Positions 3,055-21,833 of a stretch of 64,000 nt of DNA are shown here, piece by piece; position 1 is the stretch's first letter, and each line of letters begins with the position of its first letter. Under the pieces are notes generated by a model. That model saw nothing but the letters and a program-made list of their open reading frames with translations, made no database searches and had not been told where the DNA came from. Where the stretch lies: assembly GCF_000143885.2 (NCBI RefSeq), contig NC_018581.1, positions 3,224,001 through 3,288,000 of the forward strand, given 5' to 3'. The stretch is from Gordonia sp. KTR9. Lineage in GTDB: Bacteria > Actinomycetota > Actinomycetes > Mycobacteriales > Mycobacteriaceae. The translations under genes and the position numbers were made by a program.

Positions 3055-3065
3055 TAACTTAGTTA
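3055..3065. promoter_or_regulatory. Candidate operator TAACTTAGTTA (TAAC-N3-GTTA)
   Basis: This 11-bp palindrome lies in the 83-bp gap between two divergent starts (3026 minus, 3110 plus). A TATACT hexamer at 3064-3069 overlaps it and could be a -10 box for the rightward gene. Exact or near copies sit at 17111, 19975, 11333 and 21821, all in promoter gaps, suggesting one regulator for these operons. Confidence 0.55.
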
Positions 3066-3109
3066 TACTGCAAAGCAAGGTAGCTTTCGTCGATCGAGGA
3101 GAAGAAGAC

Positions 3110-4090
3110 GTGCAAATTCCGTGGAGCGGGCTGCGGATCCCTGTCATGGCCGCACCCATGTTCATCGTGTCGAGCCTGGACCTGGTGATCGCATCGTGCC
3201 ACGCCGGCGTCATCGGCGCATTCCCTTCCGCCAATCCGCGATCGCCGCACTCGCTGGAGACCTGGCTCGACGCGATTCGTACCGCCGAGGCCGAAACCCT
3301 GTCACAAGGAGGCACGTTCGCACCGTTCTGCGTGAACATGCTCGCCTCGTCCGCCGTTGACAAAGAGGCACGAGATGCAGCCCTCGCGACGCTCCGCAAG
3401 TACGAAGCACCGCTGATCTTGACCAATATGGGGGATCCTCGCGAGGTCGTCGACGCCGCCCACGGGTGGGGCGGCAAAGTGTTCCACGACGTGACCACGG
3501 TCCGGCACGCAGAGAAGGCGATCGAGTCCGGGGCCGACGGACTGATGCTGGTATGCGCCGGCGCCGGTGGACACGCCGGCACGCTGTCGCCATTCGCATT
3601 CCTGCCGAAAGTGCGCACGTTCTTCGATGGCCCGATCATGCTCGCGGGTGGCATCGCCGACGGCGCCGGCATCGCCGCCGGCCTCGCCCTCGGCGCCGAC
3701 CTGGTGGTGATGGGCACCCGATTCATCGCCAGCGCCGAGTCGGGGGCATCGCCGGACCACAAAGAGATGCTGGTGTCCTCTAGAAGCGAGGATGTGCTGT
3801 TCACCGAAGCGATCGCCGGGCTCCCCGCCAACTTCCTCACGCAGTCGATCGTTGCGAACGGTCTGGATCCCGCCGACCTGCCGGCGCCGACCGGGCGCCA
3901 TCGGCCGAATCTCCCGGCCGGAGTCAAGCCGTGGAAGACCGTCTACAGCGGCGGACATTCCACCGCGCTCGTCGATGACATTCCCAGTGTCGAGGCCGCC
4001 GTCGACCGACTCGCAACCGAACTCGCAACGGCGTCGAGCAAAGCCGACTGGCGCACCAACCTCGAGCAGCGGGTGGGCATGAACGGATGA
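3110..4090 (+). CDS. Nitronate monooxygenase/FabK-family flavin oxidoreductase
   Basis: This 326-residue FMN-binding TIM-barrel protein belongs to the 2-nitropropane dioxygenase-like family. Visible hallmarks are PVMAAPMF at the N-terminus, the phosphate/flavin segment GAGGHAG near residue 155 and LAGGIADGAGIAAGLALGAD followed by MGTRFIA near 180-210. Family members oxidise nitronates or act as enoyl-CoA or hydroxyacyl-CoA flavin oxidoreductases; IpdC of steroid ring degradation is a distant relative. In this CoA-rich setting a role on a CoA thioester is more likely than nitronate detoxification, but that is inference. A GTG at 3110 preceded by GAGGAG is preferred over the upstream ATG at 3029, which would run through the operator at 3055. 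Confidence 0.85.
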   Translation: MQIPWSGLRIPVMAAPMFIVSSLDLVIASCHAGVIGAFPSANPRSPHSLETWLDAIRTAEAETLSQGGTFAPFCVNMLASSAVDKEARDAALATLRKYEAPLILTNMGDPREVVDAAHGWGGKVFHDVTTVRHAEKAIESGADGLMLVCAGAGGHAGTLSPFAFLPKVRTFFDGPIMLAGGIADGAGIAAGLALGADLVVMGTRFIASAESGASPDHKEMLVSSRSEDVLFTEAIAGLPANFLTQSIVANGLDPADLPAPTGRHRPNLPAGVKPWKTVYSGGHSTALVDDIPSVEAAVDRLATELATASSKADWRTNLEQRVGMNG

Positions 4091-4167
4091 CCGGTCGACC
4101 GGTGGCGTATCAGCCAGAGCCAGAAGACATGGATACGGATCTGCGAATCCGCGAACACGCCGATAGT

Positions 4168-4177
4168 TAGTGCACTA
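4168..4177. promoter_or_regulatory. Palindrome TAGTGCACTA upstream of the AveC-like locus
   Basis: A perfect 10-bp palindrome stands in the 231-bp gap before the AveC-like reading frame. The same TAGTGCAC core occurs at 21809 and, on the minus strand, at 37750-37757. A one-base variant, TAGTGTACTAGG, is at 39323. All are in promoter gaps. The regulator is unknown. Confidence 0.35.
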
Positions 4178-4321
4178 GGTTGTCGAAGTATCGCCTCTTC
4201 TCTGACCTGAGCAGCGCGATGGTATGGCCAGATTTCGGTCGGCACCGCATGCCACTGTTCGGTGATCGAAAAAAAGTGACTCTGCGGCATCCGCTCGACA
4301 ACGTGCGAAAGAGAGGCAGCA

Positions 4322-5132
4322 ATGCTGGTGGCCGACGAACTGGTACCCCCATCGGTGATGGATCTCCTTCGGGTACGTGGTTCTTCAACTGGGTGGTCAC
4401 CGCCATCGGCGCGGTGTTCATCGTCCTGGCGATCGTCGACGTGATCCGGCGGCGCCGACTGACGTGGGGTTTCTGTTTCTTTTCAACAGTCTCGCCGTGT
4501 ACTGGATGGAGACCATCGGCGACTGGGGCCAGATGCTCTTCTACAGCCCGGCGTTCGCCGAACATCATCTCCTCGACTGGCTCCCGCTCAAGACACCATA
4601 CGATCCGCTTTTCATGCCTTTCGCCTACGCGGTGTACTGGGGCATCCACGCGCTGCTCGTGTTGTGGCTGAGCCAGTGGGTGTCATCGCGATTCGGCTGG
4701 AGCATGCTCAAATCGATGGTGGTGCTGGCGATTCCGGTCAACTATGTCTGGGACTTCGTCGTCGAGGGTACCGCCACCGCGATGGGTTGGTGGACGTACG
4801 ACCCCGGCATCGGGCCCGTGCTCGAGTGGGGGGATGGCGGTGGCCGCATCACCCTTCTGTGGACCATCGGGCTGATGTGTGTGTGGCCCAACCTCATCGC
4901 CTACTGGGCCGGCAAGCCTCCGATCCGCGGTCTCAATCACTTTGAGCGGTTCTGCCGACCGGAGCGGTTCACCGCGCCGAAAGCGGATATACAGTCGTCA
5001 ACAGATGCAGCAGGATCCGCTGAGACCGTCATGACCGCCGTTTCCGTCGATCACGAGCGCAGGACGAAGAAGCAAGAGTTCGACGACCACCTCAACTACG
5101 ACGCACCATCGCTCGATGGAAATTCGAGCTGA
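4322..5132 (+). pseudogene. AveC-like (spirocyclase family) multipass membrane protein, frame broken
   Basis: Three frames together encode one hydrophobic protein of about 270 residues. A well-placed ATG at 4322 (after GAGAGG) reads MLVADELVPPSVMDLL. The next frame gives GTWFFNWVVTAIGAVFIVLA, and a third, from about 4470, gives FLFLFNSLAVYWMETIGDW with a further set of aromatic-rich membrane segments ending near GLNHFERFCRPERF. Both switches fit one-base losses, the second at the GGGG near 4468. The pattern resembles actinobacterial proteins annotated as the AveC spirocyclase family, named after avermectin spiroketal formation and often found beside lipid or steroid catabolic genes; this assignment is from memory and moderate. 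Two tiny membrane ORFs follow in apparent translational coupling, which hints that the true gene may be intact. Confidence 0.6.
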
Positions 5133-5245
5133 TGCGACTGGGCGCGTGGTTCATCAGTTTCCAAGTCACGTTCTTCGTCCTCCTGGTCGTCCCGCTCGTG
5201 CTGTTACGCGCGCTGACCGGTGCCGAATCCGTCTATATCCCGTGA
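5132..5245 (+). CDS. Small single-pass membrane protein, 37 aa
   Basis: The start codon overlaps the upstream stop as TGATG, a classic translational-coupling arrangement. The product begins MRLGAWFISFQ, has one strongly hydrophobic span (about residues 8-25, rich in Phe, Val and Leu) and ends GAESVYIP. It is too short for usual gene calling. Its position between the AveC-like protein and a second small membrane ORF suggests a subunit or assembly partner for that protein. No family was recognised. Confidence 0.5.
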   Translation: MRLGAWFISFQVTFFVLLVVPLVLLRALTGAESVYIP

Positions 5246-5261
5246 TCATCAAGGAGTCCAG

Positions 5262-5414
5262 GTGAAAGATTTGCCCGATGAATTCTTCCTTCCGCCGCAA
5301 TCCGACGAGGGGTTGCGCAGGGAAACCGCTCGACTGCTCGCAGGATGCTTCGCGTTCATCGTGGTGCTCGGCATCATCGTCGCCCTGACCCAGAACATCG
5401 TCATCACGGTGTGA
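5262..5414 (+). CDS. Small single-pass membrane protein, 50 aa
   Basis: A GTG at 5262 is preceded by an excellent AAGGAG at 5251-5256. The product opens with an acidic, soluble stretch (VKDLPDEFFLPPQSDEG) and ends with one transmembrane segment (about residues 26-45, FAFIVVLGIIVAL). It lies 16 bp after the 37-aa ORF and is the last gene before a strong hairpin terminator, so it closes the AveC-like transcription unit. Function is unknown. Confidence 0.6.
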   Translation: MKDLPDEFFLPPQSDEGLRRETARLLAGCFAFIVVLGIIVALTQNIVITV

Positions 5415-5464
5415 TGCGTGGTTGCGTCGAGGTCACAACGCTTCAGACGATTCCCAGTCCTGGT

Positions 5465-5518
5465 ACAACCATCCCCTCCCGCGATCTCGCCTCATGGGGT
5501 GCGGAAGGGGATGGTTGT
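5465..5518. terminator. Long hairpin between convergent genes
   Basis: ACAACCATCCCCT at 5465-5477 is the exact inverse complement of 5506-5518, a 13-bp perfect stem. CCGC/GCGG pairing just inside it shortens the loop. It sits between the convergent AveC-like unit and the crotonase at 5574, so it could end transcription in both directions. No T run follows, as is common in G+C-rich actinobacteria. Confidence 0.75.
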
Positions 5519-5573
5519 TCGCGTGAATCTGCCGACTGGGCGTCGGGGGGTTGGGCGGGGCGGGAAACGTTGT

Positions 5574-6377
5574 TCACTCCTGCAGGCTGGCCGCGGACCG
5601 CTCCGACGCCTTCGCGACCCTGGCCGACTGGCGTTTGTCATACCGGGCACCGATGTCTTTGTTGTCCGGCTTGAATGTTGCGGAAGCCTCGGCCTCAAGA
5701 CCCAGCGCATGAGCGGTGGAGGCTCCTGCCCCCTCTTTGAGGAGCCGTAGCATCCGCTGCACCGCGCCGGGGTGACTCTCCGCGATCGAGCCCGCGATCT
5801 CGAGTGTCCGCTCCAGCAGGTGCTCATGGTCCACGACTTCGTTCGCCAGACCGATACGAAGCGCTGTGGCGGAATCGACCGGGTCACCCGACAAAATGAT
5901 TTGGATGGCCGCAGGCAGCCCCACAGCCCGCGGCAGCATCGCACTCCCACCCCACCCGTTGAGCAGTCCGATCTTTGCGTGCGTATCGGAGAACACAGCA
6001 CGGTCCGAGGCGACGATGAACGAGCAGTTCGTCGCAAACTCGAACGCCCCGGTGTAGCACGGACCGTTCACCGCAGCGATGACCGGTTTACTCACCGCAC
6101 GGAGAACCTGGGTCGGTGTGGTGCCCTCGGTCCGGGGGGCGGGACCCGACAGCGCCTCGGGCAGATCGACCCCCGACGAGAATGCGCTGCCCGCCCCGGT
6201 GATGACGATGACCCGCACCTCGGGGTCCGCGTCGGCCTTCCACAATTCACTCTTGATGGCCTTACGCATCGCGCGATTGATCGCGTTCCGCCGGTCCGGC
6301 CGATTGAGGGTCAACAGCGCCACGTGCCCGTGTCGTTCGACCAACAACGGACTCTCGGTTTCGACCTGTTCACTCAT
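5574..6377 (-). CDS. Enoyl-CoA hydratase/isomerase family protein (crotonase fold)
   Basis: This 267-residue crotonase has LTLNRPDRRNAIN and the oxyanion-hole segment AFSSGVDLPEAL. Of the two glutamates of true hydratases, the first is kept (TGAFEFATN) but the second is replaced by His (FSDTHAKIGLLNGWGG). This points to an isomerase, hydrolase or other crotonase reaction rather than simple hydration. The ATG at 6377 follows AAGGATG. It is the distal gene of a minus-strand group of crotonases, thiolase, dehydrogenase and ligase (5574-11203), 88 bp after the preceding crotonase. Confidence 0.85.
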   Translation of the reverse strand: MSEQVETESPLLVERHGHVALLTLNRPDRRNAINRAMRKAIKSELWKADADPEVRVIVITGAGSAFSSGVDLPEALSGPAPRTEGTTPTQVLRAVSKPVIAAVNGPCYTGAFEFATNCSFIVASDRAVFSDTHAKIGLLNGWGGSAMLPRAVGLPAAIQIILSGDPVDSATALRIGLANEVVDHEHLLERTLEIAGSIAESHPGAVQRMLRLLKEGAGASTAHALGLEAEASATFKPDNKDIGARYDKRQSARVAKASERSAASLQE

Positions 6378-6465
6378 ACGTCATCCTTCCGAACTGACTG
6401 GCTCGACCAGGTTCCCGGAACCATGCCCCGCCGCGGCTCCGCGATCGGGGACATCGTCCTCGAGG

Positions 6466-7269
6466 TCACTGGGCCTTCCACACCGGTGCACGCTTCTCGG
6501 CGAATGCCAACGGCCCTTCCCTGGCGTCTTCGGAGCCCATGAGATTCTGCCACTCCCTCTCGGAGAGAGCCCATTTCGACTTCTCGGCGACGATCTCACC
6601 GTTCTCAACCCCCAGTGCGACGCGTTTGCTTGCCTGGACCGACAGCGGCGCGTTCGCAGAGATGCGTTCGGCCAGGGCCAGCGCGGCATCGAGAAGCTCG
6701 GCATCGGGCACGACTCGGTTGACGAGTCGGTACTCCTCGGCGGTCGCGGCAGAGATCGGGTCACCGGTGAGCATCATCTCCATCGCGAGTCGATGGGGAA
6801 TCTGGGCCGGCAGCCGGAACACGCCGCCGGCACCCGCGATGAGACCTCGCTTGACCTCGGGCAGACCGAAGGACGCGCTCTCTGCGGCGACGATCAGGTC
6901 AGCCGCCAGCGCCAACTCGGTGCCGCCTCCCAGTGCGGTACCGTTCACCGCAGCGATGGTCGGCTTCGAGACGAAGTGGTTCACGAAGCCGGCGAAACCC
7001 CAATGCTCCTTGCCGGGAGCATGCAATCCCTCACCGCGCGAGATGGCCTTCAGGTCGGCACCAGCACAAAACGACTTGTTGCCTGCACCGGTCAGTACGA
7101 TGACACGGATCTCGGGATCGTTCTCCGCCTCCTCCAGCGCGCCGCCGACGGCGATACTGACGGACGCATTCACCGCATTGCGTGCCTCCGGGCGGTTGAG
7201 GGTGATGACGAGAACGTTGTCGCGCCGTTCGACGAGCGCGCCGGGCGTAATCGTTTCCGCTGTCGACAT
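6466..7269 (-). CDS. Enoyl-CoA hydratase (crotonase family)
   Basis: This 267-residue protein has both canonical catalytic glutamates: one in ALGGGTELALAAD and one in FGLPEVKRGLIAGAGG. Hydration of a trans-2-enoyl-CoA to the 3-hydroxyacyl-CoA is therefore plausible. The ATG at 7269 is chosen over an upstream extension because it overlaps the thiolase stop by one base (TGATG), indicating coupled translation. The pair would supply hydration and thiolytic cleavage in a beta-oxidation-like cycle. Confidence 0.9.
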   Translation of the reverse strand: MSTAETITPGALVERRDNVLVITLNRPEARNAVNASVSIAVGGALEEAENDPEIRVIVLTGAGNKSFCAGADLKAISRGEGLHAPGKEHWGFAGFVNHFVSKPTIAAVNGTALGGGTELALAADLIVAAESASFGLPEVKRGLIAGAGGVFRLPAQIPHRLAMEMMLTGDPISAATAEEYRLVNRVVPDAELLDAALALAERISANAPLSVQASKRVALGVENGEIVAEKSKWALSEREWQNLMGSEDAREGPLAFAEKRAPVWKAQ

Positions 7270-8414
7270 CACTTCACCAGCTCGAGGATCGTGGCGTTGG
7301 CCTGCCCGCCACCTTCGCACATCGTCTGCAGACCGTACCGGATATTGTTGCGGCGCATGTGATGTACGAGATCGGTGAGGATACGGGCACCAGATCCGCC
7401 GAGCGGGTGGCCCAGCGCGATCGCACCTCCGTTGGGATTGAGGACCTCGTCGGCGACACCGAGCTCCTTCTGCCAGGCCAGCGGCACCGGCGCGAACGCC
7501 TCGTTGACCTCGAAGACACCGATGTCGGAGACCGAAAGACCCGAACGCTGCAGGACCTTCTCGGTCGCGGGAATCGGCGCCGCGAGCATCATGACGGGGT
7601 CGGCGCCCACAACGGCCGCAGTGTGAACCCGTGCGATCGGGTTCAGTCCGTGCTTCTCAGCTGCCTCTTCGCTCATGACCAGCAACGCGGCTGCGCCGTC
7701 GGAGATCTGAGAGGCGTTGCCGGCGTGGATGACACCGTCTTCTTTGAACACCGTCTTGAGTCCGGCGAGCTTCTCTATGGTGGTCCCGCGGCGGATGCCC
7801 TCATCCTTGGTGACGGTCCCGTCCGCGTTGGGGACGGCGACAATCTGGCCGTCGAAGTAGCCCGCATCCTGAGCAGCGGCCGCCCGCTCATGCGACCTGG
7901 CGGCAAAAGTGTCGACGTCCGTCCGGCTCAGACCCCACTTCTCGGCCATCATCTCTGCTCCGATCCCCTGGTTCGGGTCGACGCCGTAGCGCTCCTGGAA
8001 CTTCGGTCCGTTCGGACTTCCGCCGACCGAACCCGACAGTCCCATGGTGATCCGCGACATGGACTCCACACCTCCGGCGACGACCACGTCGTAGTGGCCG
8101 GCCATGACGGACGCGACGGCGAAGTTGAGCGATTGCTGTGACGAGCCGCATTGACGATCGACGGTGACGCCCGGAACGGTCTCAGGCCATCCGGCCGAGA
8201 GCACCGCGGTGCGGGCGATGTCGAACCCCTGCTCGCCCACCTGTCCGACGCATCCCCAGATCACGTCGTCGACCGCGTCGGCCGAGACGCCGGCGCGGGT
8301 CACCAATTCGTTCAGTACGAGTGCCGAGAGATCTGCCGGGTGGATTCCCGACAGGCCGCCATTACGCTTGCCGACCGGCGTCCGGACGGCTTCTACGATC
8401 ACTGCGTTTGTCAT
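7269..8414 (-). CDS. Acetyl-CoA C-acyltransferase (thiolase, FadA-like)
   Basis: A full-length (381 aa) thiolase-family enzyme. The acyl-accepting Cys is in DRQCGSSQQS (about residue 87), the catalytic His in GHPLGGSGAR and the second Cys in CEGGGQANA near the C-terminus. It would cleave a 3-ketoacyl-CoA with CoA to release acetyl- or propionyl-CoA. AGAAGGACC precedes the ATG. The neighbouring crotonases and dehydrogenase make it part of a complete beta-oxidation module. It resembles the FadA5/FadA6 class of actinobacterial thiolases, but substrate specificity cannot be read from sequence here. Confidence 0.93.
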   Translation of the reverse strand: MTNAVIVEAVRTPVGKRNGGLSGIHPADLSALVLNELVTRAGVSADAVDDVIWGCVGQVGEQGFDIARTAVLSAGWPETVPGVTVDRQCGSSQQSLNFAVASVMAGHYDVVVAGGVESMSRITMGLSGSVGGSPNGPKFQERYGVDPNQGIGAEMMAEKWGLSRTDVDTFAARSHERAAAAQDAGYFDGQIVAVPNADGTVTKDEGIRRGTTIEKLAGLKTVFKEDGVIHAGNASQISDGAAALLVMSEEAAEKHGLNPIARVHTAAVVGADPVMMLAAPIPATEKVLQRSGLSVSDIGVFEVNEAFAPVPLAWQKELGVADEVLNPNGGAIALGHPLGGSGARILTDLVHHMRRNNIRYGLQTMCEGGGQANATILELVK

Positions 8415-8465
8415 GACTGGTCCTTCTGGTTGTATTCGTGTCCCTCAGGCAAGATCGTCTGTCGG

Positions 8466-9652: not shown

Positions 9653-11203
9653 TCAGGCGAGCCGGGCACCGACGGACGATTGGTCTTTATGGGCACCTTC
9701 AAGAAGCTCCAACTCGGCGATCAGCTCGAGGAGTCGACGACGATCGACCTTCAACGACACGTTCCGCGGTAGTTCCGGGAGAACGAAAATCCGTGTCGGT
9801 ACCTCGTAGGGCGTCAGATGTCCGCGGCAGAACGTCTTGACCTCATCCTCGTCGAACGCCGTTTCGCCGTCGACGAGCTGCACCACCGCCACGGGGACTT
9901 GCCCGAGTCGCTCGTCGGCGCGGCCGTATACGGTGGCGTCGAGGACGGCGTCATGATTCCTCAGGGTGGCGGCCACGAGTTCCGGCTGTACCTTGAACCC
10001 GCCCCGGACGATGGCGTCGTCGACCCGACCTTCGATGTACAAGAACCCGTCGTGGTCGAGGCGTGCGAGGTCGCTGGTCCGAATCCACTCCCTCCCGCCG
10101 GTACCGGCCTGGCCCGAGCGGACCTCGAGACGACCTGACTCGTTGTCCCCCAGGACTTTCCCGTCCTCGGCCACAACTCTCAAGTTCACACCGGGGAAAG
10201 CCTTCCCGACACTGCCACGCTTCTGCGTCCACCACTCCCGATACAGGGGCATCGTCCATCCGGCGATGGCGCCGGAAAACTCAGTCGCTCCGTACATGAC
10301 CAACACCGCGCAATCGAACCGCCGCGTGAACTCATCGGCAAGATCGGGATCGACCACTGTGGTCCCGGCCGTGATCGCGGACAGACTCGAGAGGTCGGCG
10401 GGATCGACATCGGCCTGCAGGAGCGATCGCATGGCCGCCGGCGGAAGGCCGGCGACTTTCGGCTTGTGTTCGCGAACGGCGTCGACCCACCCCTCGATCG
10501 TGAATCTGTGCAGCATCACGAAAGGTCTGGCCTCGGCGATGTTCTGCAGGACCCCCCAGAGCCCGCCGATATGCACGATCGGCAGGGTCACCAGGGCGAT
10601 GCGACCCGTGAACATTTCACGCCCCGCCCGGCCTCCCTTACCCGTGTAGCCGTGGACCGCATTGAGGGCGGACTCGAGCTGACGCCAGGTGAGCGGAATG
10701 CGCTTCGGGGGGCCCGTTGTCCCTGAGGTAAACATCTCGATCGCGACCGACTCGGTCGGAGGTGTCGCTTGTGGCCGCGGATCGCCGGAGACGGTCTGCG
10801 TGACAGACCGACCATCGATGTCGAAACCGGCGGCACCGCACCTTGTCACGGCGCTCGTGAACTCGTCATGGCCCCAGAACGCGTGTCCGGCCAACACACA
10901 GTCGGCCGCAGCGTTGGCCAGATCAGAAGACAGCCGCGGAATCGGTTGCATCGGATTGAGGGTGATGATGGTTCGACCTGCGCGCAGAACCGCGATCAGC
11001 GCCGCGATCGACGCCGGCCTGTTCTCCAGCACCACCCCGATTCGTGCGTCTTCGCCGCAGCCGATCCGGGTCAGTTGAGAGTCGATCGCCTCGGCGAGCA
11101 CACGCACGTCGCCCCAGGTCGTCCAACGCCCGTCCTGCTGAATCATCGGCATCTGGTCATCGGCAGCCCACAGCCCGTCCAGTGCGTCTCTAATTGTGGT
11201 CAT
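9653..11203 (-). CDS. AMP-forming acyl-CoA synthetase (FadD-like)
   Basis: This adenylate-forming ligase (516 aa from the ATG at 11203) has MFTSGTTGPPKRIPLTW, VMYGATEFSG and the hinge region YIEGRVDDAIVRGGFKV. The C-terminal lysine motif is atypical (PRNVSLKVDRRRL) with Leu where most members have Gly before the catalytic Lys. The chosen start follows GGGAAGGG; the longer frame to 11329 would cross the promoter palindromes. It is the first gene of the 5574-11203 minus-strand unit and diverges from the dehydrogenase pair at 11391. It likely activates the acid entering this module. Confidence 0.88.
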   Translation of the reverse strand: MTTIRDALDGLWAADDQMPMIQQDGRWTTWGDVRVLAEAIDSQLTRIGCGEDARIGVVLENRPASIAALIAVLRAGRTIITLNPMQPIPRLSSDLANAAADCVLAGHAFWGHDEFTSAVTRCGAAGFDIDGRSVTQTVSGDPRPQATPPTESVAIEMFTSGTTGPPKRIPLTWRQLESALNAVHGYTGKGGRAGREMFTGRIALVTLPIVHIGGLWGVLQNIAEARPFVMLHRFTIEGWVDAVREHKPKVAGLPPAAMRSLLQADVDPADLSSLSAITAGTTVVDPDLADEFTRRFDCAVLVMYGATEFSGAIAGWTMPLYREWWTQKRGSVGKAFPGVNLRVVAEDGKVLGDNESGRLEVRSGQAGTGGREWIRTSDLARLDHDGFLYIEGRVDDAIVRGGFKVQPELVAATLRNHDAVLDATVYGRADERLGQVPVAVVQLVDGETAFDEDEVKTFCRGHLTPYEVPTRIFVLPELPRNVSLKVDRRRLLELIAELELLEGAHKDQSSVGARLA

Positions 11204-11306
11204 ACGCCCTTCCCAACTCGGTGAAGCGCTACGCACGGCAGCGCGCCGGTACGAACGGGCACGGGCTCGGAGAGGACTTCCGTGCCCCAATGACGCCCGG
11301 GTACGC

Positions 11307-11343
11307 TCTATCTGAAAGATAGATGACATGGTTAACTAGGTCA
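11307..11343. promoter_or_regulatory. Two palindromes in a divergent promoter
   Basis: TCTATCT-GAA-AGATAGA (11307-11323) is a perfect 7-bp inverted repeat. Ten bases on, TAACTAGGTCA (11333-11343) matches TAAC-N3-GTTA with one mismatch. Both lie between the ligase start at 11203 and the dehydrogenase start at 11391. Confidence 0.5.
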
Positions 11344-14594: not shown

Positions 14595-14620
14595 TATAAC
14601 TTAGTGTGGTAAGTGTTATA
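14595..14620. promoter_or_regulatory. Imperfect inverted repeat upstream of the GntR gene
   Basis: TATAACTTA (14595-14603) and TAAGTGTTATA (14610-14620) form an imperfect inverted repeat about 100 bp before the GntR start. Its left arm continues as TAACTTAGTGT, a degenerate match to TAAC-N3-GTTA. This is a reasonable place for autoregulation and links this regulator to the shared palindrome, though only weakly. Confidence 0.4.
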
Positions 14621-14720: not shown

Positions 14721-15527
14721 GTGACGGATGAGGCACTGGCTCCCGTTTTCGACTCGCGCAATCACGCCGCACGCACTATCAGGACGCCGAAGACCGCCGA
14801 ACTGGTCGCCCGGAGGCTTCGCCGCATGATCGTAGACGGCGAACTGAAGGATGGCGACCACCTCCCCCATGAGGCCGAACTCATGGAGCACTACTCGGTG
14901 AGCCGCCCGACACTTCGAGAGGCAGTTCGCGTCCTTGAGTCAGAACGGTTGGTGGAGGTCCGCCGCGGGTCGCGGTCGGGCGCCAGAATCTGCGTCCCCG
15001 GGCCGGAGATCGTTGCCCGGCCCGCCTCACTGCTGCTCGAGTTGAGCAATGCGACGGTCGCGGATGTCTTCGTGGCACGCGAGGCGATCGAACCCGCTGC
15101 CGCTCGCATACTCGCCGAGCAAGGTACCGATGCGGATTTCGACGAACTCGAGCGAATCGTCGACGAGGACTTACCGACCGCTTTTGCCGCCGATGCACTC
15201 GGCCCGGGCGCGGCCAGGTTCCACCTCAGGATGGTCGAGATGTCGCGCAACGCCACGCTCGGTTTGATCGCGGGCATGCTCGACGAGATCACCGAGCGTC
15301 ACATGACCGTGGTCACCACGGAGAAGGCACACTCGAACATCGCCGACGTGACCGAGTACCAGGACAGTTACAAGCTGCTCATCCGATCCCTCCGTCGCCT
15401 GATCAAGCTGTTGCGGGCGCGCGACGGGGACGGCGCATTCATTCACTGGCAGAACCACATGGTCGCCGCCCGCGACTCGCTGCTCCGCGGGAACGAACAG
15501 GTCGAGGTGCGGGACATCCTGGATTGA
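14721..15527 (+). CDS. GntR-family regulator, FadR/FCD subfamily
   Basis: This 268-residue regulator has an N-terminal winged helix-turn-helix (about 30-100; SVSRPTLREAVRVLESERLV then EVRRGSRSG) and an all-helical FCD effector domain. The FCD domain includes the acidic/His metal-site region around VFVAREAIEPAAARIL and ARFHLRMVEMSRN. FCD regulators sense acids or acyl-CoAs. The GTG at 14721 follows AGGTCC. It sits amid the catabolic operons and is the best in-window candidate to bind the shared palindromes, although FadR-type sites usually read GT-N3-AC, so this is unproven. Confidence 0.9.
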   Translation: MTDEALAPVFDSRNHAARTIRTPKTAELVARRLRRMIVDGELKDGDHLPHEAELMEHYSVSRPTLREAVRVLESERLVEVRRGSRSGARICVPGPEIVARPASLLLELSNATVADVFVAREAIEPAAARILAEQGTDADFDELERIVDEDLPTAFAADALGPGAARFHLRMVEMSRNATLGLIAGMLDEITERHMTVVTTEKAHSNIADVTEYQDSYKLLIRSLRRLIKLLRARDGDGAFIHWQNHMVAARDSLLRGNEQVEVRDILD

Positions 15528-15600
15528 TCGAGGAGTTCTTAGACGTAGCCTTCACACAGGCAGCGAGTACGCGCCGATCGACGGCTGCCAAGCGGCAGCG

Positions 15601-15636
15601 AGTAGGCCCGGTCGGATGACTCCGACCGGGCCTACT
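15601..15636. terminator. Strong hairpin terminator
   Basis: AGTAGGCCCGGTCGGA (15601-15616) pairs perfectly with 15621-15636 across a TGAC loop, giving a 16-bp stem. It lies between the convergent GntR gene and the double-hotdog dehydratase and can serve both. Confidence 0.85.
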
Positions 15637-15666
15637 CTGGTGTGAGAGGGTCTAAAGTTCAAAGGG

Positions 15667-16965
15667 TCAAGCGTTCAGGCCTGCACGCCGCTTCTCCGCA
15701 CGTAGCTCACCGTTGCGCGAGAGAATCTGCACGGCAATACGGCTCAGATCCTCAGGCGCCGTCGGTAGGACAACCTGGCCGGACTTTCTGCTCGGCAGCG
15801 CAATGGTCGCTGTCGCCGGACAGGTCACTTCTCCGCGTTGGCTGGTGCCGCGCAGCTCGACGTCGACAAGGTAGCGGTCGCCTTCGACCCGCTTGTCGGT
15901 GACCTCACCGGTGAACGTATGGGTATCGCCCTGGTAATTGAATTTGCGCATTTGACTCGACTGGCGGACAAGCCAACCCTCGTCCCCCATCCAGTCGGTG
16001 AGGTAGTGACTGATCCAACAGTCGCGCATCATGCCGTAGTCGTACGCGGCCGGCAGACCGATCGATCGAGCGTACTCACTATCCCAGTGGATTCGCTGAG
16101 CGACATCGGGGATGCCGCTCTCGTTCGGGATGTAGAAAGCGCCGATCCGCTGGCGATTCTGGTACGCGAGCCGACCCGTGCACGGGGTGTACGGCGCAAA
16201 ACCGTATCCGCCCGAATGGAACACGACCATGTCGGTCGTGGTGAGCGGCCCCTTGGCCATGGTGCCCAGACTGTCACCGACGTTGACGTCTTCCCAGTAC
16301 CGCGTCTCGCTGCCGCGGCAGACCTCCGCGGCATAGATCTCGTCGATGCGCGCAATGTCGTCCTCAGAATACGTCGCCGGGCTGATGGCGTCGTACTTCT
16401 TGCGCTTCTTCGACTCGTGACGCTCAGTGTGGATCGTGATCACGCGTTGAATCTGCACGATTTCAGCACGTTGGTTCATCTGCACATGCGAGCGGGTGAC
16501 GATCAGTGATTTGCCGGCGAACTCGGACTGCTTCTCCTCGACACTCTCGAACCCCTGGAAGGAGTACAGCGTGTCGCCGTCATAGACAGGCCGGTACCAA
16601 TCGGTGGTGGTTCCGGAAACGAACACATGGATACCCCGAAACGACGGCTTGCGCATTTCCCTCGGAATCGGGTCGGCCAGTAGCGATTGCGAAAGCGCGA
16701 TGTTGATCATCGGAGGCGCAATCTGTCCGCCCCAACGGGTGTCGAGGCCATAATTCTCGTCGCAGAACAGCGGGTTGTCATCCCCATAGCTACGCGCGAA
16801 GTTCCGCATGATGTCGGGGGAAGCACGCGTGTACTGCTCTCGCTGCGTCACCGCGTGGTAGACACCGACCAGATCGTGAGCGCGCTGCACATCAGAGTCT
16901 TTGAAGGTGTAGATGGCCGCATCTTCGGCCACCGCGGGTGGCGCCTCTTTTTGTGGGACTGTCAT
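15667..16965 (-). CDS. Double-hotdog MaoC-like acyl-CoA dehydratase
   Basis: The 432-residue protein looks like two hotdog domains in tandem. The N-terminal one carries ARSYGDDNPLFCDENYG, reminiscent of the R-hydratase motif (D-x-N-P) but without its usual His. The C-terminal one has LPAAYDYGMMRDCW and a final strand set around FTGEVTDKRVEGDRYLV. Such proteins hydrate bulky enoyl-CoAs in steroid-type pathways. GGAGG stands 10 nt before the ATG at 16965; a longer frame from 17079 lacks a comparable site. A perfect TAAC-N3-GTTA palindrome at 17111 is the likely control element. Substrate is unknown. Confidence 0.8.
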   Translation of the reverse strand: MTVPQKEAPPAVAEDAAIYTFKDSDVQRAHDLVGVYHAVTQREQYTRASPDIMRNFARSYGDDNPLFCDENYGLDTRWGGQIAPPMINIALSQSLLADPIPREMRKPSFRGIHVFVSGTTTDWYRPVYDGDTLYSFQGFESVEEKQSEFAGKSLIVTRSHVQMNQRAEIVQIQRVITIHTERHESKKRKKYDAISPATYSEDDIARIDEIYAAEVCRGSETRYWEDVNVGDSLGTMAKGPLTTTDMVVFHSGGYGFAPYTPCTGRLAYQNRQRIGAFYIPNESGIPDVAQRIHWDSEYARSIGLPAAYDYGMMRDCWISHYLTDWMGDEGWLVRQSSQMRKFNYQGDTHTFTGEVTDKRVEGDRYLVDVELRGTSQRGEVTCPATATIALPSRKSGQVVLPTAPEDLSRIAVQILSRNGELRAEKRRAGLNA

Positions 16966-17110
16966 TCGAATCGAACCTCCGTGATTGTGAGCCTGCCTCG
17001 ACCCGGGGCGCCGCCCCGGGTGGACCGGCAGCCGATGGCGCTCGTGGCCGAACGTGCACGCGAAGAAGGGGAATCTCACTCTGCGAACGAGTTCACCGTA
17101 TCAACAAAGA

Positions 17111-17121
17111 TAACTAAGTTA
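17111..17121. promoter_or_regulatory. Candidate operator TAACTAAGTTA
   Basis: A perfect TAAC-N3-GTTA palindrome lies 146 bp before the dehydratase start and just past the stop of the ligase at 17140. It is the exact inverse complement of the site at 3055-3065. Confidence 0.55.
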
Positions 17122-17139
17122 AAGAGGACGGCGCAAGGT

Positions 17140-18648
17140 TCACACCGTGGACGTCTCGGTCAGCCTAGCCAAGACATTTCGGCGGATCAGCTTTCCTGTC
17201 TCGGTACGCGGTAGTTCGTCCCAATAGACGATGCGATCGGGAGTTTTGCTGCCGCGAAGGATGGTCCGTACATGGGAACGCAACTCGTCGACCCCGACGT
17301 TCACACCCGGTCGTACCACGACGACCGCCTCGATACGCTGGCCCCACTCTTCGTCGGGCACCCCGACCACGGCAACGTCCAGGACTGCGGGATGCCGGTA
17401 GAGGACCTCCTCGATCTCCGCAGGAGCAATGTTTTCCGCACCACGGATGATCGTGTCGTCCACTCGACCGCCGATGTAGAGGAATCCGTTGTCGTCGACA
17501 TAACCTTTGTCCCGGGTGTCGAAGAAACCCCCATCGTCCACAGCTCGACCGATTCCGGCATACTCCGCAGACACCTGTTCGCCGCGTACGCAGATTCTTC
17601 CCACGACTCCGACGTCGACGCGGTTGTCGTCTTCATCCCTGATCTCGAGGTCGATACCCGGAAGGACGCGTCCTACGGAGGACAGGCGCGCCCGGACGGA
17701 AGGTTCGTCGCTCGCCAGGGCTTCGCGATGGTCGTCGGGACCGAGCACCGCAACGGTTGAACTGGTTTCGGTGAGTCCGTACGCGTTCGCGAATCCCACC
17801 TCCGGCCACATCTCCAGAGCGCGTTCGATGATGGCTCCCGGCATCGGGGCCCCGCCGTAGGCGAGGTTGCGCAACGTTGGGAGATGTTTGTCCTCGTCGC
17901 TGTCGACGATCCGCGCGAGCATGGTCGGAACCACCAGAGCATTGGTCACATTCTCCGACCTGGCGACCTCTAGCCACTGCTGCGGCGTGAACTGCTCGAG
18001 CACCAGTGTCCGCCGTCCGGCGAACAGGTTCGAGATCACGTTCGCAACCGCGGCAATGTGGTACGGGGGGACGCTGACCAGCGCTGCGTCCTCCGCCGCG
18101 GCCGAGGCGAACTCGACCGACCCGAACACATACGACGTCAGGTTCTCATGGCGCAAGAGCACACCCTTGGGCGCCGAGGTGGTTCCACTCGTGTAGATGA
18201 CGACTGCCGGCCCCCCGGTGTCGGCGACCTCTCCCGCCTCCACCTCGGGATCGGTCAGGGGTTCCCCGGAAACAGCAGCGAGGAAGTCGTCGACGGCCAT
18301 CGCATCGATGCCGACTCGGGCGAGCGTCGCCACAGATTCCGGGCCCACAATCCCCAGAGCGCGAGGATGATTGGCGAGCACCCCTTCGATCTGTTCGGCA
18401 CCGAGTCGGTAGTTGACCGGAACGAGCGGAACGCCAGCTCGGGCGGCGGAGAACAACGCGATCGGGAACGACGGACCGTTCAACGACAGGTACACGACCG
18501 CGTCCGCGTTGGCCTTCCGGATCAGATCGGCTCCACGTATCGACCTGTCTCGGAGCCCGCGTGCGGTGATACCGCAATCCCTGGGACCGATGAGCACGCG
18601 GTCGCCGAAGCCGTCCACGGCCATGTCGAGCAGCATCGTGAGATTCAT
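17140..18648 (-). CDS. AMP-forming acyl-CoA synthetase
   Basis: A complete 502-residue ligase from the ATG at 18648 (MNLTMLLDMAVDGF). Motifs in order are VIYTSGTTSAPKGVLLRHEN, YGLTETSSTV, the hinge YIGGRVDDTIIRGAENI and the canonical C-terminal lysine motif PRTETGKLIRRNVL. It has the normal catalytic Lys, unlike the ligase at 9653. It lies 37 bp downstream of the 101-aa gene on the same strand. It likely activates a second acid intermediate in the pathway. Confidence 0.92.
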   Translation of the reverse strand: MNLTMLLDMAVDGFGDRVLIGPRDCGITARGLRDRSIRGADLIRKANADAVVYLSLNGPSFPIALFSAARAGVPLVPVNYRLGAEQIEGVLANHPRALGIVGPESVATLARVGIDAMAVDDFLAAVSGEPLTDPEVEAGEVADTGGPAVVIYTSGTTSAPKGVLLRHENLTSYVFGSVEFASAAAEDAALVSVPPYHIAAVANVISNLFAGRRTLVLEQFTPQQWLEVARSENVTNALVVPTMLARIVDSDEDKHLPTLRNLAYGGAPMPGAIIERALEMWPEVGFANAYGLTETSSTVAVLGPDDHREALASDEPSVRARLSSVGRVLPGIDLEIRDEDDNRVDVGVVGRICVRGEQVSAEYAGIGRAVDDGGFFDTRDKGYVDDNGFLYIGGRVDDTIIRGAENIAPAEIEEVLYRHPAVLDVAVVGVPDEEWGQRIEAVVVVRPGVNVGVDELRSHVRTILRGSKTPDRIVYWDELPRTETGKLIRRNVLARLTETSTV

Positions 18649-18685
18649 AAGCACTCCATAGTGATTGCGATCGGCGCCAGGACTG

Positions 18686-18991
18686 TCAGTCCGAGGCGGG
18701 CAGTGGCTTGGCCGTCTTCTCCGGCAACACCTTGCCGCCGAACGCCAGGGCGCCGTCGCCGGCTTTGGTGCACAACAGTTCCAACCCGCTGTCGACATCG
18801 ACATACCGCTTGCCCAGCTTCGCTCCACCGCGATGGGCCGGGTCGATCTCGCCACTGCCGCCAGGGCCCTTGCCCTCGACCATCTCGACCCCACCACATG
18901 TCAAGGACGCCGACGTCTTCGGCGCGCTGATGACAATGGCCGTGGTCGAGTCCACGACGCTGGCCAGCAATTGACCGACCTTGAGGTCCAT
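18686..18991 (-). CDS. Small conserved-looking protein, 101 aa, function unknown
   Basis: The product starts MDLKVGQLLASVVDSTTAIV after an excellent GGAGGAGAA site. It contains a single TCGGVEMVEG segment, a LELLCTKAG stretch and a basic, Lys/Pro-rich tail (LPEKTAKPLPASD). Two isolated cysteines could bind a metal or form a disulfide. I have an impression of similar proteins next to acyl-CoA ligases and dehydrogenases in actinobacteria but cannot name a family. It is the first gene before the ligase at 17140 and diverges from the SDR at 19134, so it is probably a pathway accessory protein. Confidence 0.75.
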   Translation of the reverse strand: MDLKVGQLLASVVDSTTAIVISAPKTSASLTCGGVEMVEGKGPGGSGEIDPAHRGGAKLGKRYVDVDSGLELLCTKAGDGALAFGGKVLPEKTAKPLPASD

Positions 18992-19048
18992 GATTTCTCC
19001 TCCATGAATTGTGACGCAATGCACTCGCCACCTCGCGTCATCACTATG

Positions 19049-19078
19049 GCAGACCATGAGGTCTGCATCACATAGTTA
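19049..19078. promoter_or_regulatory. Inverted repeat and degenerate operator in a divergent promoter
   Basis: GCAGACC-ATGA-GGTCTGC (19049-19066) is a perfect 7-bp inverted repeat. Immediately to the right, the minus strand reads TAACTATGTGA (19078-19068), a two-mismatch version of TAAC-N3-GTTA. Both are between the divergent 101-aa gene and SDR gene. Confidence 0.4.
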
Positions 19079-19133
19079 GCATAGTACTATAAGTCGGGGC
19101 CGAACAAGCTGCCCGCCAGACAAGGAGATGACA

Positions 19134-19892
19134 GTGAAAATCCAGGGCAAGAAAGCCGTCGTTGTCGGGGGAGCATCCGGGATGGGCCGCGCTAGCGCCG
19201 AGGCGCTCGCGTCGGCAGGTGCAACCGTCGCAATTCTCGATCGCGACGGCAGTGACGGGAAAGAGATCGCCAACGCAATCGGAGGCAGTTTCGCCGCAGT
19301 CGACATCCTCGACTACGAGGGTACCGAGCAGCAGCTTGCGGGGGCGGTCGCCGAGCTCGGCGGTCTGCACATCGCGATCAACACTGCGGGCGGTGGCACG
19401 GTAAAGAAGACGCTGGGCCGAAGCGGACCACACGACCTGGAGTCATTCCGCAGCGTCGTCGATCTGAATCTGATCTCCACGTTCAACCTCAATCGCCTTC
19501 AGGCTCAACACATGAGTGCCAACGACGCCGAGGACGACGAGCGCGGCGTCATCATCAACACATCGTCCATCGCAGCATTCGAGGGGCAGATCGGCCAGGT
19601 CGCATACACCGCGTCCAAGGCAGCGATCGCCGGCATGGCCCTGGTGATGGCCCGCGACCTGGGACCGCTCGGCATCCGCGCGATGGCGATCGCGCCAAGC
19701 CTCTTTGCGACCGGCGCGACCGCCGGCCTCACCGAGGAGCAAATCGCCCCACTGGTCGCCGACGCCGCCTTCCCCAAGCGCATGGGCCGCCCGGAGGAAT
19801 ACGCAAAACTTGCTCTTGCGATCGTCGACAACCCGATGCTCAACGGCCAGTGCCTTCGCCTGGATGCCGGGCAGCGTTTCGCCCCACGGTGA
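19134..19892 (+). CDS. Short-chain dehydrogenase, 3-hydroxyacyl-CoA dehydrogenase type
   Basis: This 252-residue SDR has a classical cofactor motif GGASGMGRA, NTAGG, an active-site Ser region (IINTSSIAAFEGQ) and the catalytic YTASK. The overall form resembles HSD17B10-type 3-hydroxyacyl-CoA dehydrogenases, which oxidise the hydration product to the 3-ketoacyl-CoA. The GTG at 19134 is favoured because AAGGAG abuts the ATG at 19128 too closely. It would fill the third step of the beta-oxidation-like cycle, which is otherwise missing from this region. Confidence 0.88.
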   Translation: MKIQGKKAVVVGGASGMGRASAEALASAGATVAILDRDGSDGKEIANAIGGSFAAVDILDYEGTEQQLAGAVAELGGLHIAINTAGGGTVKKTLGRSGPHDLESFRSVVDLNLISTFNLNRLQAQHMSANDAEDDERGVIINTSSIAAFEGQIGQVAYTASKAAIAGMALVMARDLGPLGIRAMAIAPSLFATGATAGLTEEQIAPLVADAAFPKRMGRPEEYAKLALAIVDNPMLNGQCLRLDAGQRFAPR

Positions 19893-19974
19893 GCGAGGGC
19901 TCGCCGGCATCGCGAGCTTGCCTCGCGTCCGGCGGGCGGGCCGCCCAGTTCGCCGGGGTCTCGGGATTCATATC

Positions 19975-19988
19975 TAACTGGGTTATCT
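19975..19988 (+). promoter_or_regulatory. Operator TAACTGGGTTA overlapping a leaderless promoter
   Basis: The third perfect TAAC-N3-GTTA palindrome (19975-19985) overlaps a TTATCT -10-like hexamer (19983-19988). This hexamer ends 7 nt before the ATG at 19996, and no Shine-Dalgarno is visible. A leaderless transcript, repressed by occupancy of the -10 box, is the simplest reading. Confidence 0.5.
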
Positions 19989-19995
19989 TTGTAAG

Positions 19996-20892
19996 ATGTC
20001 ATCGACCCCAGAGCTCGACCAGACCGTGGCGGGAGCCTGTCGACCGCCCCTCCGACAGGTGCTCGACCTCGAACAAATCGACAGTGACACCTCTCTTGGC
20101 CACTCGTTTGTCGAAGCATCACGGATCTACGGGGGCCAGGCGGTAGGACAGGCCGTGGTCGCGGCGGCCCGGACCGCGCCCGCGGATCGTCCCGTGCACT
20201 CGGTGCATGGGAGTTTCCTGCACCCAGGTGACCCTTCTGTACCTGTGCAGTACAACGTGAATCGGCTTCGCGACGGCGGTAGTTTCACTACCCGCGGAGT
20301 CTTGGCGGAGCAGTCCGACCGACCGATCTTCACTGCAACGGTCTCGTTTCAGCGGGTGGAGGGCGGCCTGACCCACCAGGTCCCCGTAAGTGCGCCCGCG
20401 CGATCGCCGGAAGACCTGCCCGAGTTCGACGACAGCCTGACCGCCGAGGACGCAGCGGCCGTCCCCTGGTTGTCGCACCTCCGCGGCAACGTCGCTGCGG
20501 ACTTCAAGTTTCCGGAAGAGTACCCGCGCCTGGCCAACGCGCGCGGCGAGTCGCGTCCTCCGGTTCAGCGAGCGTGGATTCGCGCATCGGAACCCTTGGG
20601 TGACGATCCCGTGGTTCACGCGGCGGCGTTCGCTTACCTCTCCGACCTGTTCTTGCTGTCGTCCGCACTCTCCCCGCACACGGTCACCATCGAGGACGAC
20701 CGACTGCAGCTGGCCAGCCTCGACCACACGGTCTGGTTTCACGAACAGTTCCGCATCGACGAATGGCGCCTCTACGAGCAAGAGGGGTCGTGGATGGGCC
20801 ACGGCCGAGGGTTGTGCCGCGGCCACCTGTATGACCGCAACGGATTGCTCCTTGCCAGCACCAGCCAGGAAGGTCTACTGCGCCTGCGCTGA
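19996..20892 (+). CDS. Acyl-CoA thioesterase II (TesB family)
   Basis: This 298-residue double-hotdog thioesterase matches the TesB layout. SRIYGGQAVGQAV is near the N-terminus, the catalytic Asp is in AFAYLSDLFLL, the Thr is in SLDHTVWFHE and the Gln is in ASTSQEGLLR. It hydrolyses medium- or long-chain acyl-CoA, freeing CoA. Such enzymes relieve CoA trapping when a pathway intermediate accumulates. It starts directly under the 19975 palindrome and its end overlaps the convergent thioesterase-like gene by 18 bp. Confidence 0.9.
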   Translation: MSSTPELDQTVAGACRPPLRQVLDLEQIDSDTSLGHSFVEASRIYGGQAVGQAVVAAARTAPADRPVHSVHGSFLHPGDPSVPVQYNVNRLRDGGSFTTRGVLAEQSDRPIFTATVSFQRVEGGLTHQVPVSAPARSPEDLPEFDDSLTAEDAAAVPWLSHLRGNVAADFKFPEEYPRLANARGESRPPVQRAWIRASEPLGDDPVVHAAAFAYLSDLFLLSSALSPHTVTIEDDRLQLASLDHTVWFHEQFRIDEWRLYEQEGSWMGHGRGLCRGHLYDRNGLLLASTSQEGLLRLR

Positions 20893-21753
20893 GCGCACCT
20901 GCGGGACTCGCAAGACTCCAATCGAATCGAAGGTGGCCACAGTGCGGCCACCGGCATCGGCGACCACTCCCCTACCCAGCTGGCGGCCGCTGCCGACGAA
21001 CACGTTGGCGATACTCATGCGGTGCCAATCGGCGAGGTCTGACGGTGCGGTGAAGGTAACCGTGTGCGCCAGAATGTTTCCCGGAACAGTCCCGCCCGCG
21101 GGTACGGCGATGCCGCGGGCTGCGACGGCGCTGTGGATCGCGGGAATCTCGGACGCGTGCGCGATCAAGGCGCGTCCCAGTGTCGCGTCGCCACGCGCCT
21201 CGGGGACTCGCATCCAGGCCTCATAATCGGCCGCATCGGCAGTGACCGATTCGCGGATCGCCCATGGGATCAACGCCCTTCTCACCTCCGACGCATGTTC
21301 GACGGACTTCGCCTCGGCGGGCGGTACGTCCCGTCGAAAATCATCCGCTTCATCGATCGTCAACATCACCGAAGCCGTGGTGAGAACGTCACCGTCCTGA
21401 CGGAACACAAGAGCCACGAACGCGAATGAGCGCCCGCTGTGGTGTCGAATGATCTCGACGTCGATTGGACGGTTCCATCGCCCGCCACGGACAAACTGCG
21501 TCTGCAGGCTCTGCACGCGCTTGCCGGGTTCACTGCGCTCGGCCAGAACGACCTGCTGTGCCAGCAGCTGACTCCCGAGGACGCCGCCGTGGCCCGAGGG
21601 AACACTGTCCACAGCAGTACGACCACCACTCGGCGGGAACCGTACATCGAGAACACGGCGAAGATCGTCCAGATCAAAAAGGGTCGGCAGCCAGCCCGGG
21701 CGATAGGGTACATCGGTCGTCGCCGCGCGGCCCGGGTGTTGAACTGTCGTCAT
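20875..21753 (-). CDS. TesB-like thioesterase family protein
   Basis: This 292-residue protein looks like a double-hotdog acyl-CoA thioesterase relative. It has GGVLGSQLLAQQVVLAE (the GG-x-x-x-Q helix region), QTQFVRGGRWNRPIDVEI and a second half ending VFVGSGRQLGRGVVADAGG. The strict TesB Asp/Thr/Gln triad is not obvious, so chemistry is uncertain. It converges on and overlaps the TesB gene by 18 bp; together they form a convergent thioesterase pair under separate promoters, each with a related palindrome upstream. Confidence 0.7.
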   Translation of the reverse strand: MTTVQHPGRAATTDVPYRPGWLPTLFDLDDLRRVLDVRFPPSGGRTAVDSVPSGHGGVLGSQLLAQQVVLAERSEPGKRVQSLQTQFVRGGRWNRPIDVEIIRHHSGRSFAFVALVFRQDGDVLTTASVMLTIDEADDFRRDVPPAEAKSVEHASEVRRALIPWAIRESVTADAADYEAWMRVPEARGDATLGRALIAHASEIPAIHSAVAARGIAVPAGGTVPGNILAHTVTFTAPSDLADWHRMSIANVFVGSGRQLGRGVVADAGGRTVATFDSIGVLRVPQVRSAQAQ

Positions 21754-21808
21754 ATTTCATATCTCCTTGGTTCTTGGAACGGTTCGACGAGGGCGACGAA
21801 CATCCTGA

Positions 21809-21833
21809 TAGTGCACATAGTAAACTATGTTTA
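21809..21833. promoter_or_regulatory. Overlapping palindromes upstream of the thioesterase-like gene
   Basis: TAGTGCAC (21809-21816) runs into CATAGT-AA-ACTATG (21816-21829), which overlaps TAAAC-TAT-GTTTA (21821-21833). The last has the AAC-N3-GTT core shared with the other sites. All lie about 60-80 bp upstream of the start at 21753. Confidence 0.5.

Follow-up and report, generated by a model that had tools for sequence, protein, structure and literature searches.

A 9-bp-period operator lattice in an acyl-CoA catabolic cluster of Gordonia sp. KTR9 and its probable GntR/FCD regulator

GntR-family regulators of the FadR (FCD) subfamily recognize operators of the TKGT...ACMA type, and a 2-nt spacing, GT-N2-AC, is reported for GntR, HpxS, HypR, MdcY, PrpR and UxuR (PMC4494728). 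In the case of E. coli NanR, three dimers cooperatively fill a direct-repeat operator, (GGTATA)3, which its authors present as unique among the reported GntR mechanisms (PMC8012715). Here, we analyze a window of 64,000 nucleotides from Gordonia sp. KTR9 (contig NC_018581.1, positions 3,224,001-3,288,000; window coordinates are used below), in which an initial annotation had noticed a palindrome, TAAC-N3-GTTA, in several catabolic promoters. This palindrome is probably one register of a lattice operator of the GntR/FCD protein encoded at 14721-15527, which would control an acyl-CoA/acid catabolic cluster of about 70 kb.

The window contains three exact copies of TAACNNNGTTA (TAAC-N3-GTTA) and no more, at 3055-3065, 17111-17121 and 19975-19985, all within promoter gaps, and they are as rare as had been claimed: the mean of shuffles is 0.01 copies per window, and 0 of 100 shuffles yielded three. 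With up to one mismatch, there are 8 places compared to 2.79 expected, the additional ones being 11324-11334, 11333-11343, 19068-19078, 25640 and 53729. The copies at 11333-11343 and 19068-19078, as well as those at 14597-14607 (TAACTTAGTGT) and 21821-21833 (TAAACTATGTTTA), are as originally described, whereas the copy at 11324-11334, which shares 2 bp with that at 11333-11343, had been missed. All sites were scored with a 29-bp matrix built from 32 Nocardia, Rhodococcus, Tomitella and Williamsia sites and applied out of sample, with a match defined as more than 10 bits. The matrix, being trained on other genera, gives -1.9 and 1.5 bits to the copies at 25640 and 53729, which we reject as chance occurrences. 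The complete genome of 5,885,710 bases has the exact 11-mer at 6 places, 3 of these within one 17-kb stretch; the 3 copies elsewhere score 10.7, 7.2 and 11.3 bits vs 24.3-27.5 for those in the window. By number alone, the bare 11-mer is not enriched genome-wide (6 places vs 7 for the reversed control), and its signal is clustering.

The reading of this palindrome as one shared operator stands on comparative evidence, but its geometry was incomplete, the palindrome being a single register of a composite with a 9-bp period. Among 48 sites left after duplicate removal, 23 intergenic pairs of AC...GT cores lie at offset 9, compared to 0-6 at any other offset between 3 and 30. The same period emerges when no palindrome is assumed: in 16 representative stretches of 12 genomes, window included, intergenic WAGT-to-WAGT spacings of 9 bp occur 23 times and those of 18 bp 7 times, with 0.3 and 0.4, respectively, expected from dinucleotide shuffles of the intergenic pieces. 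On both strands of the 15 stretches other than the window, the counts at 9 and 18 bp are 24 and 8 vs 0-6 elsewhere, and positions 1-26 kb of the window hold 4 and 2 such pairs. The corresponding numbers are 3 and 3 in 252 kb of coding DNA and 1 and 1 in 31.8 kb of control intergenic DNA, with up to 4 pairs at other offsets in each of these two sets. The operator is therefore a lattice, (AC-N3-GT-N2)n, usually of two to three units, in which WAGT half-sites repeat directly and, with their complements, give both AC-N3-GT (the palindrome noticed initially) and GT-N2-AC (the FadR-subfamily core).

An alternative is that the unit is a simple 11-bp palindrome bound by one dimer per site, with a fortuitous 9-bp lattice. 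This description fits three sites that are among the strongest in the window (3055, 17111 and 19975) and consist of one good 11-mer with only degenerate neighbours, but we consider it quite improbable, given that pairs at offsets 9 and 18 are enriched in loci from several genera and given two further observations. First, the exact 20-mer T.AC...GT..AC...GT.A occurs only twice in the genome (0 times for the reversed control), at 11324-11343 and 2.5 kb before the window, i.e., both times in the cluster. Second, 24 of the 27 bp of the FadD2-SDR promoter element TCACATAGTTnnnATAGTACTATAAGT, which includes three repeats, do not vary among 11 loci from four genera, chosen because they had already been seen to hold the element, and the flanks are largely unconserved; the FadD2-SDR gap of L024 (= L140), left out of this alignment, contains a diverged form. 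Nocardia, Rhodococcus and Mycolicibacterium share the conserved lattice with Gordonia, and one Streptomyces and one Actinomadura locus have matches as well. A narrower form of the 20-mer, with up to 2 mismatches, is found in 37 places of the genome; 11 of these fall within 70 kb surrounding GntR 14721 (C2:3,213,442-3,283,505), a stretch that amounts to 1.2% of the genome, and at least 7 WAGT-N5-WAGT among the matches listed fall in this stretch, with about 2 expected by length.

Predicted sites are present in the gntR promoter and in nine other promoter regions, or twelve if the weaker sites at 37.7, 39.3 and 41.7 kb are counted; these three, along with sites about 10.6, 8.5 and 2.5 kb ahead of the window start, are additional to those between 3 and 22 kb. 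The sites of the window are the following (likely start codons, here and below, were read by eye):

3046-3065, operator CTACCAAGCTAACTTAGTTA, composed of the exact 11-mer (3055-3065) and, to its left, a degenerate repeat, 24.3 bits; divergent promoter of a fused acyl-CoA dehydrogenase gene (minus strand) and an NMO-like gene (plus strand, likely GTG start 3110)
4165-4189, weak possible array AGTTAGTGCACTAGGTTGTCGAAGT, about 190 bp 5' of an AveC-like open reading frame (ORF; 4377, plus strand), 11.8 bits at 4172
11324-11343, full composite operator TGACATGGTTAACTAGGTCA, made of two 11-mers that overlap with a 9-bp offset, 25.7 and 24.5 bits; between an acyl-CoA ligase gene (minus strand) and an acyl-CoA dehydrogenase gene (plus strand, likely ATG 11391)
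14597-14616, gntR promoter operator TAACTTAGTGTGGTAAGTGT, with WAGT directly repeated once at a distance of 9 bp, 17.1 bits
17093-17121, operator array ending in the exact TAACTAAGTTA (17111-17121), 27.5 bits plus 11.9 and 10.5 at -9 and -18; upstream of a FAS1-dehydratase/MaoC-like gene (minus strand)
19068-19094, operator TCACATAGTTAGCATAGTACTATAAGT, three WAGT repeats with a 9-bp period, the FadD2-SDR promoter element described above; between an acyl-CoA ligase gene (minus strand) and an SDR gene (plus strand)
19975-19994, operator TAACTGGGTTATCTTTGTAA, 24.3 bits; immediately 5' of the ATG (19996) of an acyl-CoA thioesterase gene (plus strand)
21813-21832, operator GCACATAGTAAACTATGTTT, 19.8 bits; upstream of a thioesterase-like gene (minus strand)
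37743-37762, probable site, 12.5 bits; between a rhamnosidase-like gene (minus strand) and an SDR gene (plus strand)
39318-39337, probable site ACACATAGTGTACTAGGTAT, 14.3 bits; upstream of a 165-aa ORF (minus strand), before a DoxX-like gene (plus strand)
41698-41717, probable site GCACATGGTGTGCTTAGTTA, 15.1 bits; upstream of SDR, aldehyde dehydrogenase and P450 genes (plus strand)

The motif is far from being equally common inside genes. In the window and 21 orthologous loci (L007-L027), T.AC...GT.A has 53 intergenic and 31 coding matches in 85 and 394 kb, respectively, a 7.8-fold higher density between genes, compared to density ratios of 1.43-1.95 for five control patterns of identical letters; genes were called with a crude script (length and GC3), and the first 60 nt of each gene were counted as intergenic. 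When 1152 gapped palindromes were ranked against dinucleotide shuffles, T.AC...GT.A came first both in L007-L029 (48 vs 9.6 expected) and in the intergenic DNA of the whole window (41 pieces, 11,034 bases; 9 vs 1.0). The operator form with 2-nt spacing, T.GT..AC.A, is likewise abundant in two locus sets (40 vs 10.4 and, in same-genus loci, 41 vs 11.8 expected), and TAGTNNACTA, with the same spacing, has 20 intergenic and 2 coding matches. The canonical 3-nt TNGTNNNACNA was rejected as the operator, with 14 intergenic and 36 coding matches and a ratio of 1.77, no better than the controls.

The matrix gives a similar picture, with the qualification that neighbouring 9-bp registers of one array may count separately. 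It finds 14 intergenic and 0 coding matches at 1-26 kb of the window; 6 in 7.8 kb intergenic and 2 in 30.2 kb coding DNA at 26-64 kb; 5 in 6.9 kb and 2 in 33.1 kb in the 40 kb before the window; and 1 in 6.3 kb and 1 in 33.6 kb in the 40 kb after it. Same-genus GntR loci (31 stretches) have 90 matches in 85.8 kb of intergenic and 15 in 523.9 kb of coding DNA, four Mycolicibacterium, Streptomyces and Actinomadura loci have 20 in 14.4 kb and 0 in 68.5 kb, and five control regions have 0 in 10.5 kb and 1 in 89.4 kb. As the A+T content is higher between genes than within them, AT-rich patterns are favoured in intergenic DNA, and chance or promoter composition could in principle produce such an excess. 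We regard this explanation as practically negligible, given the three exact copies where almost none is expected, an enrichment that holds against shuffles of the intergenic pieces themselves, the low ratios of the same-letter controls and the five control regions with no intergenic match above 10 bits.

A related question is whether the sites could be variants of the steroid-regulon site of KstR, a TetR-family protein of lipid catabolism in mycolic-acid actinobacteria, with which they share the AAC/GTT arms. KstR sites have a 2-bp spacer, their full form being T..AAC..GTT..A, and we know of no lattice for this regulator. The full form is absent from the window, and AACNNGTT shows no enrichment between genes (ratio 1.15). 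Thus, the comparative evidence bears out the earlier assessment that the sites are not those of KstR, and a KstR origin appears very improbable. Separately, KstR-core-like AAC..GTT occurs 33 times between genes in the same-genus GntR loci L101-L131 (6.4 expected), so steroid-type regulation may lie near some of these clusters.

Several observations weigh against the operator and regulon reading. In the same-genus loci, T.AC...GT.A ranks only 34th of 1152 (29 vs 10.4), below T.GT..AC.A and TAG....CTA (20 vs 1.8), and some GC-rich gapped palindromes reach similar z-scores. In L024, the matrix has 4 matches in 3.1 kb of intergenic DNA but also 2 in 17.6 kb of coding DNA. Coding DNA holds 15 offset-9 AC...GT pairs, no more than at 12, 15, 21, 24 and 27. 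The 37 near-matches of the 20-mer in the Gordonia sp. KTR9 genome compare to 27 for the reversed control, and WAGT-N5-WAGT occupies 169 places (86 and 83 per strand) vs 656 (336 and 320) for the reversed pattern. In a tally over 59 genomes, the exact 20-mer averages 3.4 in 16 relatives with a GntR orthologue and 2.2 in 42 without one, among the matches listed, many of which are GC-rich and coding-like. Because coding sequence matches these patterns, genome totals of the 11-mer, the 20-mer or a 16-bp core were rejected as a test of GntR presence or absence, as was the WAGT-N5-WAGT total of the Gordonia sp. KTR9 genome, all being too noisy. As evidence for the regulon limits, the sites at 37-42 kb and those preceding the window carry less weight, and the other matches at 26-64 kb (34946, 40181, 46031 and 59495) may or may not belong to the regulon. 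The last of these, with 16.6 bits, belongs to an AT-rich element, TTAAATAGTAGACCTATTTA (59486-59505), a partial lattice match just upstream of a TRAP transporter (DctP) gene, which is maybe the operator of another regulator.

The candidate regulator is encoded within the site cluster:

14721-15527, plus strand, gntR, GntR-family regulator of 268 aa with a winged helix-turn-helix (HTH) and an FCD domain; proposed repressor

Both PF00392 (65.3 bits) and PF07729 (52.0 bits) match this protein above their cut-offs, which places it in the FadR (FCD) subfamily. The AlphaFold2 model has a mean pLDDT of 84.2, with very low confidence for residues 1-20, and its fold matches in the PDB are GntR/FCD-type regulators, in particular a GntR of S. 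agalactiae (TM-score 0.61) and CGL2915 of C. glutamicum (0.60-0.62). Orthologues hardly differ in the recognition-helix region, VSRPTLREAVRVLE. In an alignment of 34 sequences, H168 is invariant and H246 nearly so, which would fit a metal-dependent FCD pocket.

The sites, with their conserved lattice geometry, are tied to loci that hold this GntR. A site above 10 bits is found upstream (search from 450 bp) of 15 of the 17 same-genus orthologues (58-100% identity; the window copy is included, and the species are not independent), in contrast to 1 of 12 paralogues (41-44%), in whose promoters a related motif was looked for and none resolved. Among the named records L007-L029, 21 of 23 orthologues have an upstream site, 18 of the 23 being training loci and the other five contributing 3. 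For distant relatives, the number is 1 of 5; L030, with a match that starts at base 1, was left out of this analysis of named records. Of the 39 FadD2-like matches, 30 had loci, and a promoter site above 14 bits is present in 7 of the 8 that belong to a GntR-I cluster vs 1 of the 22 others, four more of which reach 10-14 bits; one of the 22, L148, begins close to the end of a contig and could be part of a cluster that has been split. In L140, the site is found 124 bases into the matched stretch, and the frame of this stretch contains a stop. The Gordonia sp. KTR9 genome has 20 FCD-domain matches, and only GntR 14721 falls within the site cluster; a 42%-identical paralogue about 25 kb after the window (L064, G000:C2:3313438-3314130) has a promoter without the motif (2.8 bits). 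Gene order around the GntR varies between genera, and the sites persist. Near 12.5-13.2 kb of L008, L013, L014 and L019, a second GntR gene (37-41% identity) is located between FASDH-like and FadD2 genes; the counterpart of this position in the window is only a 60-bp gap.

The exceptions have to be set against this pattern. No site above 10 bits precedes gntR in L024/L041 (one record), L047 and L029; the paralogue L056 (16.4 bits) and the distant relative L035 (12.9 bits) do carry one; and the FadD2 gene of L139 lacks a promoter site. Furthermore, the loci were gathered by GntR homology, and any other factor of these clusters would therefore be enriched as well. A different regulator, a TetR protein such as that at 26090-26746 or one encoded elsewhere, could bind the sites, with the GntR only a neighbour. 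TetR repressors often bind 11-20 bp palindromes and are often encoded in acyl-CoA clusters, a TetR gene is present at 26090, and every link of the GntR to the sites is one of association. Nevertheless, on a comparison that dealt systematically with the GntR and the 26090 TetR only, among the transcription factors of these loci, we deem this alternative unlikely: homologues of the 26090 TetR are found in only 3 of 29 loci (L011, L014 and L017; 33-34% identity), the sites precede gntR in most of these genomes and do not precede its paralogues, and the embedded GT-N2-AC core fits the FadR-subfamily sites as they are described in PMC4494728. Within 26090-26932, the TetR gene is divergent from aldehyde dehydrogenase and alcohol dehydrogenase genes, with no lattice site above 9 bits in the gap. 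Given that sites accompany orthologues rather than paralogues, the initial suggestion of GntR 14721 as the regulator gains comparative support, and it is the likely binder by association; the sites are real operators of a catabolic regulon that is probably under its control.

The genes around the sites encode acyl-CoA dehydrogenases, enoyl-CoA hydratases, a thiolase, acyl-CoA ligases, SDR, thioesterases, an amidohydrolase and a CoA-transferase. Before the window, there are genes for branched-chain-type ABC transport, a thiolase-like protein with a ChsH2-type OB domain and a hydroxyisobutyrate-dehydrogenase-like protein, and SDR, aldehyde dehydrogenase and P450 genes follow at 41.8-45.8 kb. The proposed targets include:

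705-3026, minus strand, fused acyl-CoA dehydrogenase
9653-11329, minus strand, acyl-CoA ligase, likely start ATG 11203
17140-18897, minus strand, acyl-CoA ligase, likely start ATG 18804 or 18798
19128-19892, plus strand, SDR dehydrogenase

Hexamers resembling -10 elements, also read by eye, lie inside or at the edge of the operators: TATACT at 3064-3069, TACTAT at 19085-19090, TATCTT at 19984-19989 and, on the minus strand, TATCTT at 17107-17112. The hexamer at 19984-19989 would place the transcription start at the ATG at 19996, yielding a leaderless transcript. We propose that the GntR itself binds the lattice sites as neighbouring dimers over the -10 region, several of which could fill one lattice. 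Since a protein at this position would block RNA polymerase, the most likely mode of action would be repression of the acyl-CoA catabolic regulon of about 70 kb, and of gntR itself, with release of the GntR by a pathway intermediate, an acid or an acyl-CoA.

With its operators mapped and a candidate regulator named, this hitherto uncharacterised acyl-CoA catabolic island can be read as a predicted regulon, and the matrix can be used in other actinobacteria. Cooperative direct-repeat operators may recur in a second GntR group. Another conserved element, TAACCTCGTTA or its complement, is present in at least 11 same-genus genomes (G001, G003, G005, G008, G013, G015, G018, G020, G021, G022 and G025), and in Gordonia sp. 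KTR9 it is found far from the cluster (L001, G000:C2:1094043-1094053); perhaps it is a site of another regulator. A literature search over the titles and abstract openings of the papers listed, with most subscription journals outside its coverage, did not find the regulator or the motif named, and as far as this search went, the operator is new in detail and its architecture departs from the usual FadR-subfamily palindrome.

Compared to the FadR subfamily, GntR 14721 has the same winged HTH and FCD domain, and its predicted sites contain the GT-N2-AC core, but here this core is part of a lattice with a 9-bp period in which AC-N3-GT palindromes arise as well, unlike the operators described in PMC4494728. 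GntR1 and GntR2 of C. glutamicum are likewise actinobacterial FCD regulators with some sites overlapping promoters; unlike the cluster analyzed here, their regulon, as reported, is that of gluconate, and their sites fit TNGTNNNACNA with 1-2 mismatches (PMC2230225). In the PDB, NanR ranks among the best matches of GntR 14721 by sequence as well as by fold, with a TM-score to the model of 0.38-0.51 alone and on DNA, and the best NCBIfam match is NanR NF003011, below its cut-off (92.5 bits vs 260). Both systems combine a GntR/FCD protein with a direct-repeat operator (PMC8012715), here a predicted one with repeats at 9 and 18 bp. The half-site is WAGT rather than the GGTATA reported for NanR, the lattice has inverted symmetry too, the cluster is devoted to acyl-CoA rather than sialic acid, and about 20-25 residues precede the HTH vs the 32-residue extension of NanR (PMC8012715). 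By analogy with NanR, we tentatively suggest, as a possibility somewhat short of even, that GntR 14721 could be an assembling GntR repressor outside proteobacteria, with dimers side by side on the 9-bp WAGT lattice and the number and quality of the units setting the order and sharpness of induction across the regulon of about 70 kb.

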